From a virus: a stretch of 64,000 bases of DNA. Position numbers and translations under genes: made by a program. The stretch lies in IMG/VR virus record IMGVR_UViG_3300005253_001115, positions 62,001 to 126,000 of that record. One strand, given 5' to 3'. The notes beneath the pieces are model-generated. The model had not been told where the DNA came from, ran no database searches, and worked only from the letters and a program-made list of their open reading frames with translations. Below are positions 131 through 43,017 of the stretch, one piece after another. Within the stretch, counting starts at the first letter, position 1. Every line of letters starts with the position of its first letter.

Positions 131-162
131 GAGGCCGGAGGCAGTGCCTCCGGCCTCTTTTT
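131..162 (+). terminator. rho-independent terminator
   Basis: A perfect 12-bp GC-rich inverted repeat (gaggccggaggc / gcctccggcctc) with a 3-nt loop is followed at once by TTTTT. This is the strongest intrinsic terminator seen in the window. It separates upstream transcription from the HNH gene, which has its own CTAAAG motif just downstream. Confidence 0.93.
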
Positions 163-33000: not shown

Positions 33001-36000
33001 ATGGCATCCAATCCTAGTTTTCGACTGGTAAACACGCGATACGTGCCGCCCGGTGTATACATCGGACAGCTCATTATCCCCAGGCCCACGAACCTCACGG
33101 CAGACGCAAGGCTGCCCGCCTTCATTGGCGTTGGTAACCGATTGGCCGAGGGTAAAAACATCGCGATTCGGCGCTCTTTCATCTTCGAAGAGTCGCTTGC
33201 GTTTACGTCACTTTCACCCCACGTAGCGCAGCTCGTATTCAATGCAGATCAGGACCAGAACGCTCCGGGCATCCAGCTCCGTAAGCAGGACGGTACTGTC
33301 GTGCGTACTGACTTCTGGAACTTCACAGAGAGCGTAAGCGACAGCGGTGTATTCGATCAGGTAACCATCTCGCTAGAGGCTTTCGATCCGACTGCCACCT
33401 ACCTCATTGATTACCAGTCAGTCGAGCGCACCCCGCAGGATGTGATTCCGGTCGAGGAACTTCGAGAAGTTGTTACCGTTGGACTGTCGGAGGATGCTCC
33501 CCAGTTCCGAGAGAACATCGACTTCTTCATCGTAACTGATGTAACTGACCCGCTTGCTGACCTTGGTAACGTAAACACGGACTCGGTTCCCGAGGCGGTT
33601 TCGGCCGACGCTGGTAACACGGGTGCCATGGTTATCACGCAGGCTACATCTTCCGAGTTCGCTCATAACTACAACCGCTACTATACTCTAGAGTGCAACA
33701 ATGCTTCAGGTTCTTCTCCGAACCGGACGGCTTCATTCCTTCTTCGCAGTATACCCGCTGGGGGCGGTAACAACGCCCTTCCGCCGCGACCACTAAACGC
33801 TATAGAGGCTGCTACTACTCTCGTGATTACAGAGGGAGTAAACCAGTTCAGTATCGAGATTGAACTTGGAATCGAGCTTGACTTCGCATTCCCGGCCGGT
33901 TCAGGTAACGCCGCAGTAGCAGATGAGTTCGCCTTCCACGGCTTTGGCCCTGGTCTGGTTGAGCCTGACGCTCGCTACGACAACACGAACCAATTCCCCG
34001 AAGCTACAGGCATTGTAGTTGGCGATTCGAACTCCGGCTCCGGCTCCATCGCCGTGGCCACTACGACGGACTTCACCCGTGACTTTAACACTGGGTTCTC
34101 CCTACGTGTTGTAGGCATCGCAGGTTCCTCTCCTACCCGGACAGTAACCTTCGCATGGGCGTCGTTCATCGAGCTTGGCCCGGACGGAACTTTCACGGCA
34201 GATGAGGCTGTACCCAACACGCTGACGGAGAGTCTAGCTTTCGGTGTCGATGTAGACATCAGCTTCGGCTCCTCGAACTTCGCAGTTGGTGACGACTTCG
34301 CCTTCATTGCAAATGCTCCGGCTCTACGGTACTCCGGTAAGGACAACCGAACTTACACCCTGACGACCGGCTCCACAGCCAACATCGTGAGCCTCCCTGT
34401 TGCTCAGACTGACCCGCTGACTAGCAGCCTCCTGTCCGTTCCCCGTGTTGTGGGTACTGCGGTTGGTGAGTTCAACACGGATACTCCTGAGGGCGGCTTC
34501 GGTTCCTACGAAGCTAGCCAGCAGAACTGGTTCGATCCGCTGAACCCTGATGCCCGCACCGGCCACTTTCTCTTCCCTGATAACGTCAAGATGGCGTTCC
34601 GTAATCAGTGTCGAGGCGATGGTTTCGCAGGTAACCGTGAGCAGGGTGGCGACAAGCACTCCTTCACTGCAAACGATCAGAACACCATCGACTGGAGCCT
34701 GGTACAGCAGCGAGAGCAAGAGTTTGAGACGGACGATCTTATCGTAGATGTAAATGGAACTGTTACGGGTATCCCTGGTCAGACCTACATCATTCTCGCT
34801 GAGATTCCTGAGGACGGCACTGTTGCGGTAGTTACCACTTCGGGTCTGGTTCCGGTAGCCTCGGTAGAGGTTCCTGGTTCTCCCTTCGTGTCACTTCCGG
34901 TGACTCCGACCGAGACGGTTACCGCCTCTTACGATACTCGTGGCTCTGAGCCCGATCCGGGTCAGCTCTACTACTTCACAGGAAACTTCCTGCGTGGTAC
35001 AGAACTGTACAACACTCCGATCCTTGTACTCGACCGTGATGACGGACGTACTCTCCTGGGTCCGCCCTCTGTAGACAACCATCTGCACATCACCAACGAG
35101 CTTGCGTTCGACAACAACGTATTCGGTGCCTATTACATTCAGGTAGCCGACGCAGACGAAGACGGCGTGTTCCAGCAGACAGACTTCAAGACGGCGCTTC
35201 TAGCAACCGAGAATGTGGAAACGATCACAGATCGCGTGGTCCTGGCCCGCCAGGACGCTTGGGGTGACCAGCTTGCAGTCAACGAGCGAGCCAACGATCC
35301 CTTCGCACGACGCGAGTCGCTTGATTGGTTCGGTGCTCCGATTGGTACCCCGATTGGTGACCGCCAGACTGCCGACACGCTTCGCTTCATTGCGGATAAG
35401 CCGCTACGAGTGTTCGGCAACTCCCCCTCCCACGGTACCAGAATTCTGGCAGGACCGACGCAGGCTACAGTTAACATCGTCCTACAGTCTGGTGATACCG
35501 TAGAGGTTACAGTTGACGGGTCGTTCGTCGCTGCCGCTCTGGCATCGCTAACAGCTAGTTTCGCAGATCCGGCCAACACGGTTCTCAAGAAGAACCTCGC
35601 TGGCTTCACGAGTGTACAGACGTACACCCCGAAGGAGAACGCGCTACTCGGTGATGCTGGTGCAATCTACGTAACCGATCTCGGTAACGGTGTCGTCCGT
35701 ATCGAAGAGGATACAACGGTTGACACGTTCGCCATTGACTTCTACCTAATCTCGGCCATGACGCAAAAGCAGTTCGTGACCAAGGTTGTACGTAGGGAGA
35801 TGGCTAACTCGGTCATCGCGCTGATCGTGCCTAGCGCTGCTGCCGGTGTTGGCATCATCAAGGCTAGCCTCTCTGCCATCTTGCTCGGCCTTCTTGGTCA
35901 AGGCATCATCGGTCAGTACGAGGACGATCAGCAAAACGTAAGGAAGTTTGACCCCGAGGCAGACGTGGTAGTTTTCCGAGATTCGGCAGATTCCACTCTC

Positions 36001-36105
36001 TACCACATGTTCTACGCATACTTCCTGCGATTCCCGATCAAGCGCGTGTTTGGTCTATTTACCGTAAACACAAACGATTTCGGCGTGGGGTCAGGTAACC
36101 CGTAA
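33001..36105 (+). CDS. tail sheath protein (1034 aa)
   Basis: The N-terminus has the sheath signature (RYVPPGVYIGQLIIPRP ... LPAFIGVGNR). The C-terminal about 150 residues contain the conserved sheath core (DTFAIDFYLISAMTQKQFVT, SLSAILLGLLGQGII, YHMFYAYFLRFPIKRVFGLF), which forms the inner contractile layer around the tube. It is much longer than the classical T4 sheath (about 660 aa) because of large beta-rich insertions (about residues 190-460 contain two similar repeats, NSGSGSIAVATTTDFTRDFN and NTGAMVITQATSSEFAHNYN). These probably decorate the outside of the tail. The tube gene follows after one small gene and a homing endonuclease, keeping the usual sheath-tube order. Confidence 0.92.
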   Translation: MASNPSFRLVNTRYVPPGVYIGQLIIPRPTNLTADARLPAFIGVGNRLAEGKNIAIRRSFIFEESLAFTSLSPHVAQLVFNADQDQNAPGIQLRKQDGTVVRTDFWNFTESVSDSGVFDQVTISLEAFDPTATYLIDYQSVERTPQDVIPVEELREVVTVGLSEDAPQFRENIDFFIVTDVTDPLADLGNVNTDSVPEAVSADAGNTGAMVITQATSSEFAHNYNRYYTLECNNASGSSPNRTASFLLRSIPAGGGNNALPPRPLNAIEAATTLVITEGVNQFSIEIELGIELDFAFPAGSGNAAVADEFAFHGFGPGLVEPDARYDNTNQFPEATGIVVGDSNSGSGSIAVATTTDFTRDFNTGFSLRVVGIAGSSPTRTVTFAWASFIELGPDGTFTADEAVPNTLTESLAFGVDVDISFGSSNFAVGDDFAFIANAPALRYSGKDNRTYTLTTGSTANIVSLPVAQTDPLTSSLLSVPRVVGTAVGEFNTDTPEGGFGSYEASQQNWFDPLNPDARTGHFLFPDNVKMAFRNQCRGDGFAGNREQGGDKHSFTANDQNTIDWSLVQQREQEFETDDLIVDVNGTVTGIPGQTYIILAEIPEDGTVAVVTTSGLVPVASVEVPGSPFVSLPVTPTETVTASYDTRGSEPDPGQLYYFTGNFLRGTELYNTPILVLDRDDGRTLLGPPSVDNHLHITNELAFDNNVFGAYYIQVADADEDGVFQQTDFKTALLATENVETITDRVVLARQDAWGDQLAVNERANDPFARRESLDWFGAPIGTPIGDRQTADTLRFIADKPLRVFGNSPSHGTRILAGPTQATVNIVLQSGDTVEVTVDGSFVAAALASLTASFADPANTVLKKNLAGFTSVQTYTPKENALLGDAGAIYVTDLGNGVVRIEEDTTVDTFAIDFYLISAMTQKQFVTKVVRREMANSVIALIVPSAAAGVGIIKASLSAILLGLLGQGIIGQYEDDQQNVRKFDPEADVVVFRDSADSTLYHMFYAYFLRFPIKRVFGLFTVNTNDFGVGSGNP

Positions 36106-36129: not shown

Positions 36130-36513
36130 ATGCAAGGTTCACGACTTGTCACACTATGCAGGATTGCTGCCCATCTTGATTCCGAAAAAGTGGGGAAGCA
36201 CGCCCTTGCCGCACAGATCTACGACGTTCTTGCAACGCAGGTAGATCTGTCGCCCGAAGGTAAGAAGCTTCTTCAGGACTTCTTCGGGTTTGGGGTAAAC
36301 GGCGAACAAGACTTCGAGGTAGGAGATTTCGGCGAGAACGTGCCGGAGTCCGACTATCAAACGAAGCGAGATCCTTTCCTTGATCCGTCCTCGGAGCGAA
36401 TGCCTGAGCCTAAGAGCGATATGCTCGCGGGTGTCAATGAGGCTGCCGCTGCTTTGGAGAGTCATGGGGAGTTCGTTCTTGCTCGGGCCTTGAGGTTCGA
36501 GTACGGAGCGTAA
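36130..36513 (+). CDS. small phage protein between sheath and tube (127 aa)
   Basis: A helical N-terminus (LCRIAAHLDSEKVGKHALAA), an acidic middle, and a C-terminal helical hairpin (EAAAALESHGEFVLARALRF). The two hairpins resemble each other and those of the 105-aa protein at 1,105. Shine-Dalgarno AAGGAG. It is co-transcribed with the sheath. Function unknown. Confidence 0.65.
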   Translation: MQGSRLVTLCRIAAHLDSEKVGKHALAAQIYDVLATQVDLSPEGKKLLQDFFGFGVNGEQDFEVGDFGENVPESDYQTKRDPFLDPSSERMPEPKSDMLAGVNEAAAALESHGEFVLARALRFEYGA

Positions 36514-37302
36514 ATGGTTTACGGTAGGATCTACAAAGCTGAATTCCCTAATGGGAAGCTGTATGTAGGTCTTACCACCATGCGTTTGAAGATCCGGGTA
36601 GACTGTCACATGGGTTCTTCTCGTTCCCAGAAGCATAGAGGATGTGTAGCTTTTAACAATGCCATCCGAAAGCATGGGAAACCCGTCTTCACGGAACTTT
36701 GCACAGCGGACTCTAAGGAAGAATTGGACGCAGCGGAAGTACATTGGATTGCTAAATTGGGAACTATGGTTCCGGCTGGTTACAACATCAAAGAAGGTGG
36801 CGGTAACGGTAAGCACTCTGGAGAAACTAAGCGGAAGATGAGTAAGACCCGTGCAGGCATGAAAATGCCTCCCAGAACGCCGGAACAGTGCCTGAACTAT
36901 CGAAGGCTTGGTGAGCAGAACGCTAATTTCGGGAACCCTCGCAGTGCTGAGACACGCCAAAAAATAGGCGACGCACAGCGGGGCAATAAGAATCACCGAT
37001 TCGGAGCCAAGTGGGACGAAGAGCACTTGGTTATGTTTAGTGAAAGGCAACTAGGGGAAAAGAATCATTTTCACGGCCAGAAGCACACTGCTTCCGCTAA
37101 AGACAAGATGTCTGCGAAAAAGAGAAAATTCTCCAAAGAAGATGTAATTGAGATCTTACGACGCTCGGGGGAAGGCGAAACTCAAAAAAGTATCGCAAAA
37201 TCCTATAGTGTGAGCCCGACAACAATTAGTAGAGCTATCAACGGAAAACGCCGTTGCTACTCTAACCAAGGAGCAATAATGCCTAACCCTTCGCCTCAGT
37301 AA
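36514..37302 (+). CDS. GIY-YIG homing endonuclease overlapping tail tube exon 1 (262 aa)
   Basis: GIY-YIG nuclease domain (residues 1-95: GRIYKA, KLYVGLT, LDAAEVHWIAKL with the catalytic Glu, YNIKEGGGNG). It is followed by NUMOD3-type repeats (HSGETKRKMSK, SAETRQKIGDAQRG, HTASAKDKMSAKK) and a C-terminal HTH (TQKSIAKSYSVSPTTISRAI). The domain set is complete and no damage is seen. The frame continues through the tail tube start (MPNPSP) and ends at a TAA inside the group I intron. In spliced RNA that stop is removed and this gene would be open into the tube gene. It is a free-standing endonuclease beside an ORF-less intron, the arrangement known from collaborative homing, and probably cuts intronless tube alleles. 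Confidence 0.9.
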   Translation: MVYGRIYKAEFPNGKLYVGLTTMRLKIRVDCHMGSSRSQKHRGCVAFNNAIRKHGKPVFTELCTADSKEELDAAEVHWIAKLGTMVPAGYNIKEGGGNGKHSGETKRKMSKTRAGMKMPPRTPEQCLNYRRLGEQNANFGNPRSAETRQKIGDAQRGNKNHRFGAKWDEEHLVMFSERQLGEKNHFHGQKHTASAKDKMSAKKRKFSKEDVIEILRRSGEGETQKSIAKSYSVSPTTISRAINGKRRCYSNQGAIMPNPSPQ

Positions 37303-38096
37303 GGGGCCTTCGAGGAGTAATCCTCGTCGCAAATTCGGTGAATTCGGGGGAACCCCAAACAAGTAAAGTTGTGGGCAATCCCGAGCGAAGCCTAGAAGGA
37401 AACTTCTAGGAACGTGTAACGACTAGACCAGAGCCTAAAGCTTTAGCCACGGCAGTAAGGGTCACTCGGTTGGAGCAATCCTTCAGAGAAGCGCCGGACA
37501 TCCTAGCGGATGATGATATAGTCTGGTCCCTAGTGAAAGTTAGGGAGGTTGGCAGAAATGACCAGCCCTTACCTCGGTAAGTAACAAAACCGTTTGCAAC
37601 CAATGCTTTTGACGTTACGGTGCAGCCGCTCGAACAGGGCGCTGCTGGAGCGCCTACGACGAAGACGTACCACGGTATGTCCATTGTCGTTGGAGGCAAC
37701 ATCGTTGGACGTATCCAGTCATGGCAGCCCAACGCTTACACCCGTGAGGGTGCCCATGTTCGTGAGCTTTCTCACGTAACCTGGGGTCGTCCGATCGACT
37801 ACGTTCCGGGTCAGGCTACTGGCTATACCGTTAGCTTCACTCGCGTGGAAGTTTGGAATCAGGAGCTTGAGCTTACGCTAGGTTTCGGATCGGTCTTTGA
37901 TGACCTCATGGACCAGACTCGCCCGTGGGTTACCCAGGAATATCTCTTCCGTGGTAACGAGCTAAACAAGCTCTGGCAGTACAGCGGTTGCTGGTTCCAG
38001 ACCAAGAACAACAACAACTGGGAGTCAGGCGGCGACGCGATCGTTACGGTCGAGTGTGAGCTGGCTTACGTCTCCCGAGTAAGAGTGGCCGGATAA
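37279..38096 (+). CDS. tail tube protein, split by a group I intron (173 aa after splicing)
   Basis: Exon 1 is 37,279-37,296 (MPNPSP, with AAGGAG 5 nt before the ATG); exon 2 is 37,593-38,096. Joined, the protein starts MPNPSPFATNAFDVTVQP and continues through a beta-rich core (MSIVVGGNIVGRIQSWQP, RELSHVTWGRPIDYVPGQ) to VECELAYVSRVRVAG. Size, fold pattern and position after the sheath fit the myovirus tube protein that forms the DNA channel. Without splicing, translation would stop after seven codons at the TAA in the intron. The stop codon overlaps the next ATG (TAATG). Confidence 0.85.
37297..37592 (+). ncRNA. group I intron (296 nt, no ORF) in the tail tube gene
   Basis: The boundaries follow from pairing. 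Exon GCCU (37,293-37,296) pairs with GGGC (37,304-37,307) as P1, with U.G at the splice site. The adjoining GUAAG (37,299-37,303) pairs with the 3' exon UUUGC as P10. P2 is CGAGGA-GUAA-UCCUCG. P7 is GACUA (37,421-37,425) with UAGUC (37,519-37,523) in the typical contexts aacgacua and gauauagucu. The last base is G. Splicing restores an open tube frame with no stop. It should be self-splicing; exact ends remain a prediction. The TAA at 37,300 would stop ribosomes before the intron core. Confidence 0.85.
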
Positions 38097-40157: not shown

Positions 40158-40633
40158 CAGCCACGGAAGACGACCCCGATCTGGCAGTCCGTGGCTACGT
40201 CCTAGCCAAAACTGGATGGACTCTGGAGTACATAAACGGACTCTCAGAGATGCACCTGCTGTTCGCGTACCACTGGATCTCCAAGGTGGATGCCGATCAG
40301 TGGAAGCGGCTATCTTCGCACTTGGGTACTGTGTGGGATAGAGAGACTTTGGAGATGCTAAATTCTAAGGCCCCTGGCACAGGTAGGGCTTCCCCAGACA
40401 AGATTTTTGTTCCATTATCTCTTAGTATCAACCCAGATCTGCCTGAGGCGCTTCTGGGGAAGAAGCGAACTACCGCTTCTGCCTCCCAGGGGGAACCTGT
40501 TTCCACCTCTAAGGGGGATGGACTCCACACAGCAATGGCAATGCCTGAAGGGGATGAGGTCATAAACATGGGAGACTTGCCGAAGGATGAATTCTTCGGT
40601 CTGGTGTCGCAAGCGGGCCTTGCTAAGATCTAA
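40151..40633 (+). CDS. frameshift extension of the tail assembly chaperone (GT form)
   Basis: The -1 frame continues directly from the slippery site (ALTATEDDPDLAVRGYVLAK ... YINGLSEMHLLFAYHWISKV) to GLAKI. Fused to the upstream frame this gives a protein of about 462 residues. An internal ATG at 40,250 has no convincing ribosome site. The extension has helical and Pro/Ser-rich parts, as in T domains that contact the tape measure. The stop overlaps the tape-measure ATG. Confidence 0.78.
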   Translation, partial: ALTATEDDPDLAVRGYVLAKTGWTLEYINGLSEMHLLFAYHWISKVDADQWKRLSSHLGTVWDRETLEMLNSKAPGTGRASPDKIFVPLSLSINPDLPEALLGKKRTTASASQGEPVSTSKGDGLHTAMAMPEGDEVINMGDLPKDEFFGLVSQAGLAKI

Positions 40634-43017
40634 TGGGTATTCAGGACATCTTAAAAGCCGCCAAGGGCGGCTCTAGTAACACGTCCCCGGTTATACCGCA
40701 GGGCGGCGGCTATTCTCAAGGCGACGTAAAGATCGCCGCGAGTATGGCAAAGCGGATGTCCCAAATTGAAAAGTTGGTCAAGAGCAGCAACGTCCACTGG
40801 GCCAAGATGGGCGAAGCACGACCTCTAGTGCAAGCCCAAAAGTCCATGGAGGAGTACAACGTAGCACAGCAAGAACACAATGCGTTGATGCGCAGCAGCA
40901 CCGCCTCCATGAAAGAGAAGGTGGCAGCCTATAGCAAACTTGCTACAGCACGCAAGAAAGCTATTGACGATACCAAAGAGTACAACAAGGTTCTAAACGA
41001 GACAAAGGGAGTTTCTGGACGCGCCCTTAACGTCCTAAGAGAACTACCTCTAGGCATGATGGCTCTGGCTGGTGCCGCGAACGCTGTGAAAATAGCTTTA
41101 GGCCAAGCAAACGAAGGCTTCCAAGCTATGGCGCGCAATGGCCAAGTAGCGGGCAAGTCCATGGGAGATCTTGCGAAATCTACTGGGATGTTCGTTGTGG
41201 AGATGAACCTCGCATCCATCTCAGCCGCGAAATTTGGCATCGCACCCGAAGAATCCAACAAGGCTTTCGCTCAGCTCACCGAAACCTTCGGCGGTACCGG
41301 TAAAGCGGTTAACACTCTCGGAGCCCAGTGGGAGAGTCTGTCTCAAATTGCCGCCGTTAGTGGTATTGGTATGACAGCTATGTCCAACCTTGTATCTGAT
41401 AACTTCAGGAAGGTTGGTGGCACAATGGAACAGGCGCTGGATGCAGCTAAGAACCAAGTTGCTGACCTGTCTATGGTTACCGCAGAGCTAAATGCTCGCT
41501 TCGGTGCCGGTTCTGTGAACACGGCGGCGTTCGCCGATGCCATTAACAATTTAGCTTTCGGCTCTAGCTTTGCGAACCAGAACTCTCGAATGCTAACAGA
41601 AACTTTGGGTCGCGAGCTTCAGATGCAGCTTGCTCTGGGTAAAGCTCCTGAGGCTGCCATGAAGGCTGCGACGAAGAACATAGAATTGGCTGGTAAGGTC
41701 AATATCGTAGGTATTACACAGTTCAGAGAGAAATTACAGGCAGCATACGAGGAGGCACAAAAGGAAGGCACGGGAGCGGAGTATCTAGAGAGCCTAGGAG
41801 AGAAGTTCGGTAGCCAGGGCGAAATCATCGGTAACATGCTCGAAACCAAGACGTTGATGGATTCCAAAAATCTGTTTGCTTTTCAAGAGGCTGTTGACCA
41901 GTCAACTGGACTGCGAGACCAGATGCTGGACGATATGCGCTCGTCGGCTGCTGGCGGAGACGTTAGCGCGCTGCTTGCGAAAGGTCTAGGTATTAGAGAA
42001 GCGCAGTATATGGTGGCTGAAGCTGATTTGCTTAATACCAAGATCGGAAAGTTGACCAAAACAGGTAAAGAGGGTGCCGCTGCGGCAGAAGATCTGTTCG
42101 GAAAAGACTGGCAGAAGGGTGAGGATAAGGAAAAGGTTGAAAAGTTCATTGCTGCCCAAGCCAGTGGCGACTTCTCCAAGGCAGAAATGCAAATGAAGTT
42201 CAGGGAAATGCCCGGAGCAAAGCTTCCCGACGCCGAAGTTCCAGAGGATGCAGCAAGGAAGCCATGGGAAGAGTTTGTTGGGAATACGGAAGGGGCGGGT
42301 TGGTTCAGCGGCATTACGAGTGCCTTCAAGACCATCCCCGGCTTGTTAAACACTGCGGTTGGCAGTATCGTTGGTGGCATCGGTGGTGCGATAGCTCTAT
42401 GGGGCGCGAAGTCTATTGCTGCTAAAATGATGGGAGGGGTAGGGGTACCCGGTATGGGTGGTGTCGCCGGTATGGGTGCTAAACTGCTGAAGGGAGGCTT
42501 GGTAACGGCAGCCGCAGGAGTAGGCGTTGCCGGGTTTGCTGATGCCGCTAGTCGTATGCGAGAGAAGAAGGAATCTGGCGAAAGTTTCCTGGGTATGGAA
42601 GAAGATGAAGGCGGTCTCATGGGTTCACGCGCCGGAGGAGCACTTCAAGCTACCGCCAGCGGGGCTCTGGTTGGCGCAGCAATAGGCTCAGTAATCCCTG
42701 TCGTTGGAACTCTCATCGGTGCCGCAGTGGGCGCAGGATTCGGAGCGTTAGGAGCCCTTATCGCGGACACGACCGCCGACGCCCCTACAGCTCCCGAAGC
42801 TGCCCTGCTTGAAAAAGCACAACAAGAAGCAGATGCTGTGCCGCCGCCTTCCTCACCGGTTCCGGTTTCAGACGAACCGGTTGGAGCGGGTGCAAAGTCT
42901 GGTGGCCCCGGAGCTGCCATTGCCACTGGTACCGTTTCTGGTAATTCTCTTATTTTGGAAGTAACGAACTGGGATCAAATTCACGCCCAGGCAGTTGACG
43001 CCGCCGCAAGCGGCTAA
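40633..43017 (+). CDS. tape measure protein (794 aa)
   Basis: Long helical protein. N-terminal coiled coils (about 30-130, MAKRMSQIEKLVKSSNVHWA, MKEKVAAYSKLATARKKAID); a helical middle typical of tape measures; and hydrophobic Gly/Ala-rich segments in the last third (LLNTAVGSIVGGIGGAIALW, VGAAIGSVIPVVGTLIGAAV), which probably help DNA entry through the membrane. Length sets tail length; by the usual rule of about 0.15 nm per residue the tail would be near 120 nm (inference). It directly follows the frameshifted chaperone gene, as expected. Confidence 0.88.
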   Translation: MGIQDILKAAKGGSSNTSPVIPQGGGYSQGDVKIAASMAKRMSQIEKLVKSSNVHWAKMGEARPLVQAQKSMEEYNVAQQEHNALMRSSTASMKEKVAAYSKLATARKKAIDDTKEYNKVLNETKGVSGRALNVLRELPLGMMALAGAANAVKIALGQANEGFQAMARNGQVAGKSMGDLAKSTGMFVVEMNLASISAAKFGIAPEESNKAFAQLTETFGGTGKAVNTLGAQWESLSQIAAVSGIGMTAMSNLVSDNFRKVGGTMEQALDAAKNQVADLSMVTAELNARFGAGSVNTAAFADAINNLAFGSSFANQNSRMLTETLGRELQMQLALGKAPEAAMKAATKNIELAGKVNIVGITQFREKLQAAYEEAQKEGTGAEYLESLGEKFGSQGEIIGNMLETKTLMDSKNLFAFQEAVDQSTGLRDQMLDDMRSSAAGGDVSALLAKGLGIREAQYMVAEADLLNTKIGKLTKTGKEGAAAAEDLFGKDWQKGEDKEKVEKFIAAQASGDFSKAEMQMKFREMPGAKLPDAEVPEDAARKPWEEFVGNTEGAGWFSGITSAFKTIPGLLNTAVGSIVGGIGGAIALWGAKSIAAKMMGGVGVPGMGGVAGMGAKLLKGGLVTAAAGVGVAGFADAASRMREKKESGESFLGMEEDEGGLMGSRAGGALQATASGALVGAAIGSVIPVVGTLIGAAVGAGFGALGALIADTTADAPTAPEAALLEKAQQEADAVPPPSSPVPVSDEPVGAGAKSGGPGAAIATGTVSGNSLILEVTNWDQIHAQAVDAAASG

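Follow-up and report, generated by a model that had tools for sequence, protein, structure and literature searches.

A group I intron in the tail tube gene of an uncultured jumbo phage contains the only stop codon of the upstream GIY-YIG endonuclease gene: a probable collaborative-homing pair

What does it mean for a homing endonuclease gene to find its only stop codon inside an intron of the next gene? This question is raised by a locus in a virus that belongs to an uncultured jumbo-phage clade and is represented by the 266,640-base record IMGVR_UViG_3300005253_001115, of which we analyzed bases 62,001-126,000 (a stretch of 64,000 nucleotides, called the window here). A sequence-only reading of this DNA had proposed an ORF-less group I intron in a tail tube gene, placed next to a free-standing GIY-YIG gene as in collaborative homing, and had suggested that splicing might switch between endonuclease and tube expression or create a useful fusion; a covariance-model search and an alignment with intronless tube genes were named as checks. 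We compared the window closely with three related loci, which are L002 (its nearest relative, without the intron), L003, and L004, and more widely with a set of 15 tube loci in IMG/VR. The following features of the window, given from upstream to downstream, are needed for the argument:

33001..36105, plus strand: tail sheath gene, 1034 aa (phrog_279 tail sheath, E 3.1e-6)
36130..36513, plus strand: gene of unknown function between sheath and tube, ORF of 127 aa, occupying the equivalent position in both L002 and L003
36514..37302, plus strand: free-standing GIY-YIG homing endonuclease gene, 262 aa (PF01541, PF07460, HTH families, phrog_314)
37269..37278, plus strand: tube ribosome-binding region, CAAGGAGCAATA, core AGGAG, within the GIY-YIG reading frame, as read from the sequence
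37279..37296, plus strand: tube exon 1, ATG CCT AAC CCT TCG CCT (MPNPSP), in frame with the GIY-YIG gene
37293..37307, plus strand: P1, exon GCCU (37293-37296) with GGGC (37304-37307), U.G at the splice site, identical in L004
37297..37592, plus strand: ORF-less group I intron, 296 nt with terminal G (RF00028; empty sites in L002 and L003, homologous intron in L004)
37300..37302, plus strand: shared stop TAA at intron positions 4-6, ending the exon-1 and GIY-YIG frames in unspliced RNA
37421..37523, plus strand: P7, GACUA (37421-37425) with UAGUC (37519-37523), identical in L004
37593..~38098, plus strand: tube exon 2, 167 codons plus stop
40633..43017, plus strand: tape measure gene, 794 aa (phrog_794, E 4e-4)

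The covariance-model search matched the group I intron family RF00028 at 37279-37545 on the plus strand at 76.8 bits (gathering score 50, E 9.6e-18), and the alignment spans the whole model (positions 1-253). This match is the sole Rfam hit in the window, and the intron is the sole group I intron found across the entire record. The tube genes of both intronless relatives are continuous at the corresponding position, reading ...CCATCGCCT|TTTGCGAC... in L002 and ...CCCTCGCCT|TTTGCCAC... in L003. Because the junction (CCT|TTTGC) cannot be shifted by even one base against these empty sites, the intron extends exactly from 37297 to 37592, as had been proposed, and it is inserted between tube codons 6 and 7. 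L004 carries an intron of 299 nt at the same insertion base.

Comparison of these two introns also informs the secondary structure. Among the 68 pairs drawn from P1 to P9.2, 66 are kept in L004, 12 of them through base changes, 7 of which are two-sided, in P2, P5a, P6a, P9, and P9.2. P1, the P3-P8 core, and P7 can all be drawn and are conserved or covary between the window and L004, a P7.1/P7.2-type insert lies ahead of P3', and the terminal G is present in both introns; overall, we regard the intron as group IA-like. The P1 and P7 helices of the sequence-only reading were thus recovered unchanged in L004, and its P10 (GUAAG/UUUGC) indeed exists in the window with five pairs, but it is not conserved and is left without comparative support since only about two of the five pairs are possible in L004. 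The Rfam alignment draws P1 differently, pairing exon CCCUU with AAGGG; given the empty sites of the relatives and the L004 intron, we favor GCCU/GGGC. Folding of the intron RNA is more stable than that of shuffled sequences (z -2.6), which is a weak but consistent sign of an intron, and we infer that it would be removed by self-splicing. It is practically out of the question that the insert is no intron at all, so that its 296 nt would be translated or the tube would start downstream at GTG 37620 with the upstream part as mere spacer. A GTG-started ORF does exist at 37620-38096, but L002 and L003 encode an uninterrupted MPNPSPFATN(A/S)FDV and the insert combines in-frame stops with a full covarying group I core; translation of the insert was rejected on these empty sites and this core.

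The spliced tube protein begins MPNPSPFATNAF... and matches the uninterrupted relatives, with identities of 98% to L002, 94% to L003, and 90% to L004 (the latter over exon 2 only). The L002 homologue, as modeled by AF2 (mean pLDDT 63), resembles contractile-tail tubes in Foldseek comparisons, among them those of PVC (6j0b, E 2.5e-5) and T4 gp19 (5w5f, E 3.8e-4). The fold of this moderate-confidence model and a gene order with the sheath before and the tape measure behind identify the host gene as coding for a contractile-tail tube, in agreement with the earlier assignment. A profile of the tube had zero matches in a PDB sequence search and zero in bacterial and archaeal genomes.

The gene directly upstream of the split tube gene, which had been read as a free-standing GIY-YIG gene, bears this name out: the ORF at 36514-37302 scores 22.9 bits for PF01541 against a threshold of 22.6 and matches the homing endonuclease family phrog_314 with E 2.7e-30. 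Its catalytic domain covers residues of about 6-84, followed by NUMOD3 at 140-170 and a C-terminal HTH at about 205-246. The conserved positions Y7, Y17, R28, H32, E75, and N91 are present, with roles that we presume from I-TevI; the catalytic residues are thus intact. By sequence, the PDB yielded just a weak, insignificant match to the I-TevI DNA-binding domain (E 0.37), and the AF2 model of the endonuclease was of low confidence (pLDDT 49) and was set aside. When IMG/VR was scanned with the endonuclease of the window, zero relatives were returned. The GC content at third codon positions (GC3) is 0.486 in the endonuclease gene versus 0.60-0.62 in sheath and tube, so the gene is probably a recent arrival. 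Its start codon ATG directly abuts the stop codon TAA (36511-36513) of the 127-aa gene. Elsewhere in the genome, an ORF at G000:C1:254678-254875 on the minus strand (L010) is the third to share a C-terminal HTH like that of the endonuclease (37% over 67 residues), with an N-terminal part that looks unlike GIY-YIG.

How, then, do the two genes come to share a stop? The GIY-YIG frame passes 255 codons before it reaches the tube ATG at 37279, and it stays free of stops across the ribosome-binding site of the tube and across exon 1 up to the intronic TAA, so that the last 7 sense codons of the endonuclease plus its stop coincide with tube exon 1 plus two intron codons. Joining the exons produces an open frame of 428 codons. 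This confirms the element that the sequence-only reading had called unusual, a GIY-YIG gene in frame with exon 1 whose only stop is intronic. Both other frames of the GIY-YIG gene would stop at the tube start, either at the TAA in AATAATG (37277-37279) or at the TAA in GCCTAAC (37284-37286), and for an endonuclease gene that is still open at the tube start, an in-frame overlap therefore has a chance of about one in three. Once in frame through exon 1, the gene must end at the intron stop.

This stop is not a special feature of the endonuclease gene. At the equivalent codon, the L004 intron has a TAG (CAA TAG) with no GIY-YIG gene adjacent, and the annotated exon-1 frame at the hydrolase intron of E72m5 likewise stops at once in the intron; we therefore rejected the idea that the early stop is peculiar to the endonuclease gene. 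In most group I introns, the exon-1 frame is closed by a stop codon immediately behind the 5' splice site, and splicing benefits when the upstream exon is translated (PMC3073962, PMC3984707). Since an early stop is usual, L004 has one as well, and the frame overlap has a chance of about one in three, we read the shared stop as probably a tolerated by-product. In an intronless genome the same overlap would fuse endonuclease and tube, and the intron would render it harmless.

The alternative put forward before was that splicing acts as a genetic switch, with unspliced RNA giving free endonuclease, spliced RNA giving tube and/or a fusion protein, and splicing efficiency setting the balance. The frame does run on through 428 codons after splicing and is stopped at 37300-37302 before, and coupling is conceivable since T4 introns rely on a translated upstream exon for their splicing (PMC3073962). 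We nevertheless consider a switch very unlikely. The tube does not need one because it has its own ribosome-binding site and ATG (the relatives have GGAG-type sites at the same tube position), the intron and its stop are retained in L004 without the endonuclease, and the arrangement is common to no relative. Furthermore, the early stop follows a general rule of such introns, and an N-terminal extension of 255 aa would probably harm tube assembly. A fusion from spliced RNA is possible on paper, and nothing suggests that it is used. A scan of the tube/GIY-YIG locus for promoters and terminators found sites no more commonly than in shuffled sequences.

If the shared stop is a by-product, the question becomes why intron and endonuclease gene are neighbors. 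Four states are found among the window and its three close relatives: L002 is empty, L004 has the intron without an adjacent endonuclease gene, the window has both, and L003 is intronless with a probable scar. This scar is a short insert between the 127-aa gene and the tube (L003:3810-3955) with a YGKIY start and an HTH-like end, and it ends in its own stop in a different frame. In Smith-Waterman comparisons 26/5000 and 131/5000 shuffles reach its two scores, and BLASTP with the insert gave zero matches; on these modest statistics, we regard it as a probable remnant of a GIY-YIG gene. Across the wider set, the intron occurs beyond the window at only one of the 15 tube loci, that of L004, and IMG/VR searches with intron-core patterns of 35 and 18 nt likewise hit the L004 contig alone. 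Between the window and L004, the introns are 85.1% identical versus 73.9% for exon 2 (39% at third positions). Together with the absence of the intron from L002, the nearest relative, this is the pattern of a mobile intron, although constraint on the ribozyme also slows change and may partly explain the conservation.

The earlier proposal of a collaborative-homing arrangement is supported both by the anatomy of an ORF-less intron beside a free-standing endonuclease gene and by the mosaic distribution. This concept has been reviewed (PMC3984707, PMC2988022), and several known systems can be compared. The closest precedent appears to be the large terminase locus of Vibrio phage ICP1, where an endonuclease of a GIY-YIG subfamily adjoins the N-terminal exon of an intron-split gene: a T5orf172 (GIY-YIG-type) gene immediately precedes this short exon, no endonuclease is encoded in the intron, and the arrangement was called collaborative homing (PMC10448857). 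ICP1 differs in the host gene and the endonuclease subfamily. In its record NC_015157, the endonuclease ORF130 (74753-75943, minus strand) overlaps the exon-1 ORF129 (74655-74756) by 4 nt, so that the overlap is out of frame and the endonuclease stop is not intronic, in contrast to the in-frame overlap of the window. In T7-like phages and for cyanophage psbA/F-CphI, cutting at the intron insertion site was demonstrated (Bonocora & Shub 2009 and Zeng et al. 2009, as cited in PMC3984707), whereas the window pair is known from sequence. Free-standing mobE of T4 mobilizes an intron without a working endonuclease (I-TevIII, nrdB) in trans, though it is of the HNH family and the nrdB intron contains a defunct endonuclease gene (PMC2988022). 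Group I introns in a tail tube gene as such are already known from orf142 of Staphylococcus phage Twort (PMC11878797, citing Landthaler & Shub 1999); there, however, three introns with exon skipping are found in an unrelated phage, and the passage of PMC11878797 on these introns describes no in-frame upstream endonuclease. Finally, introns of the Staphylococcus phage E72/PH15 type share a core that is about 75% identical over 120 nt, but their hosts are a cell wall hydrolase gene and, in PH15, a split terminase gene that itself houses a GIY-YIG gene.

The two elements could also be coincidental neighbors, the intron being old and immobile or independently mobile and the endonuclease having its target elsewhere, for example in the 127-aa gene or the sheath gene. 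They do occur apart, with the intron only in L004 and the scar only in L003, and the true target could lie at a distance because free-standing phage endonucleases often cut hundreds of bases away from the gene that encodes them (PMC2988022). We judge this unlikely, since the endonuclease gene runs up to the intron-bearing exon, since its start lies 46 bp ahead of this exon in terms of the empty L002 locus, and since the same genome has a second case of an endonuclease gene placed immediately before a gene that carries a splicing element free of endonuclease (L009, see below).

We therefore favor, as the probable explanation, that intron and upstream GIY-YIG gene spread as a collaborative-homing pair with the shared stop as a by-product. 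The RF00028 match, the exact empty sites, the compensatory changes, the mosaic distribution, the intact catalytic residues, the foreign composition, and the ICP1 precedent all argue for such a pair, while the persistence of the L004 intron without an adjacent endonuclease and the presence of the pair in a single contig, that of the window, speak against it. The endonuclease gene would have inserted into what was previously the spacer separating the tube from the 127-aa gene, and its product would cut endonuclease-free, intronless tube alleles at or near CCT|TTTGC. The intron would shield the donor allele from cutting, and repair would copy intron and endonuclease gene together. With the gene itself providing no stop codon ahead of the tube start, its ribosomes would traverse the 18-nt exon 1 and be released at the stop supplied by the intron at positions 4-6. 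This is where phage introns usually halt exon-1 ribosomes, so the shared stop may simply be tolerated.

Similar layouts were seen at other loci of this clade. About 6 kb upstream of the window (L009:1483-3085, G000:C1), a second GIY-YIG gene stops one base short of a gene whose zinc-ribbon-like product carries a mini-intein that has no endonuclease domain (PF14890, E 4.8e-11; NPHV|CIAQG...VTHN|SKPV). This locus, of which L049 has a near-identical copy, has the layout of the window: a free-standing endonuclease with an endonuclease-free splicing element. In the genome of L004 (L008:2090-2400, equal to L044:865-896 and surroundings), the orthologous gene with its orthologous GIY-YIG neighbor has an empty intein site and a frame-breaking insert of 52 nt (TAT|CAT TGA...) with a perfect 16-bp hairpin, after which reading resumes in another frame behind a second TAT. 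This insert looks like a ribosome-bypass element of the T4 gene 60 type, the alternative being a broken gene; T4 gene 60 likewise has an endonuclease gene as the neighbor of its bypass insert (PMC5009743). In the L003 genome (L033, L039:3699-3734), where the endonuclease gene is lacking, the same gene is interrupted by another hairpin insert, located at a different codon (GGT|AGG TAG...). Its stem measures about 17 bp, the codon at which reading would resume follows after 47 nt, and the landing codon is GGT. In the roughly 280 kb of window and L037-L047 that we surveyed, there are six perfect hairpins with arms of at least 12, and only the L008/L033 pair lies inside a coding gene. A perfect 13-bp hairpin followed by T-rich sequence at window positions 131-157, kept in L046:8312-8338, is intergenic and terminator-like.

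Because of the mini-intein at L009 and the hairpins at L008 and L033, we tentatively raise a broader reading, itself rather doubtful, in which GIY-YIG genes of the clade repeatedly come to lie upstream of genes with an endonuclease-free 5' insert that masks the target, be it intron, mini-intein, or bypass hairpin. The endonuclease would then be a general partner of such inserts, with the window gene depending on the intron for its stop.

The window locus is a variant of an arrangement known from other phages, set apart from ICP1 by its in-frame shared stop. As a collaborative-homing pair, it would carry this concept over to a gene for a tail structure in a clade of uncultured jumbo phages. The natural series of alleles in close relatives (empty, intron only, intron plus endonuclease, and probable scar) makes the order of gain and loss directly testable, and the in-frame shared stop offers a simple test of how ribosomes of an upstream gene affect group I splicing. 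Together with the mini-intein locus and the hairpin inserts, this would make the clade well suited to asking why endonuclease genes and endonuclease-free inserts share sites.
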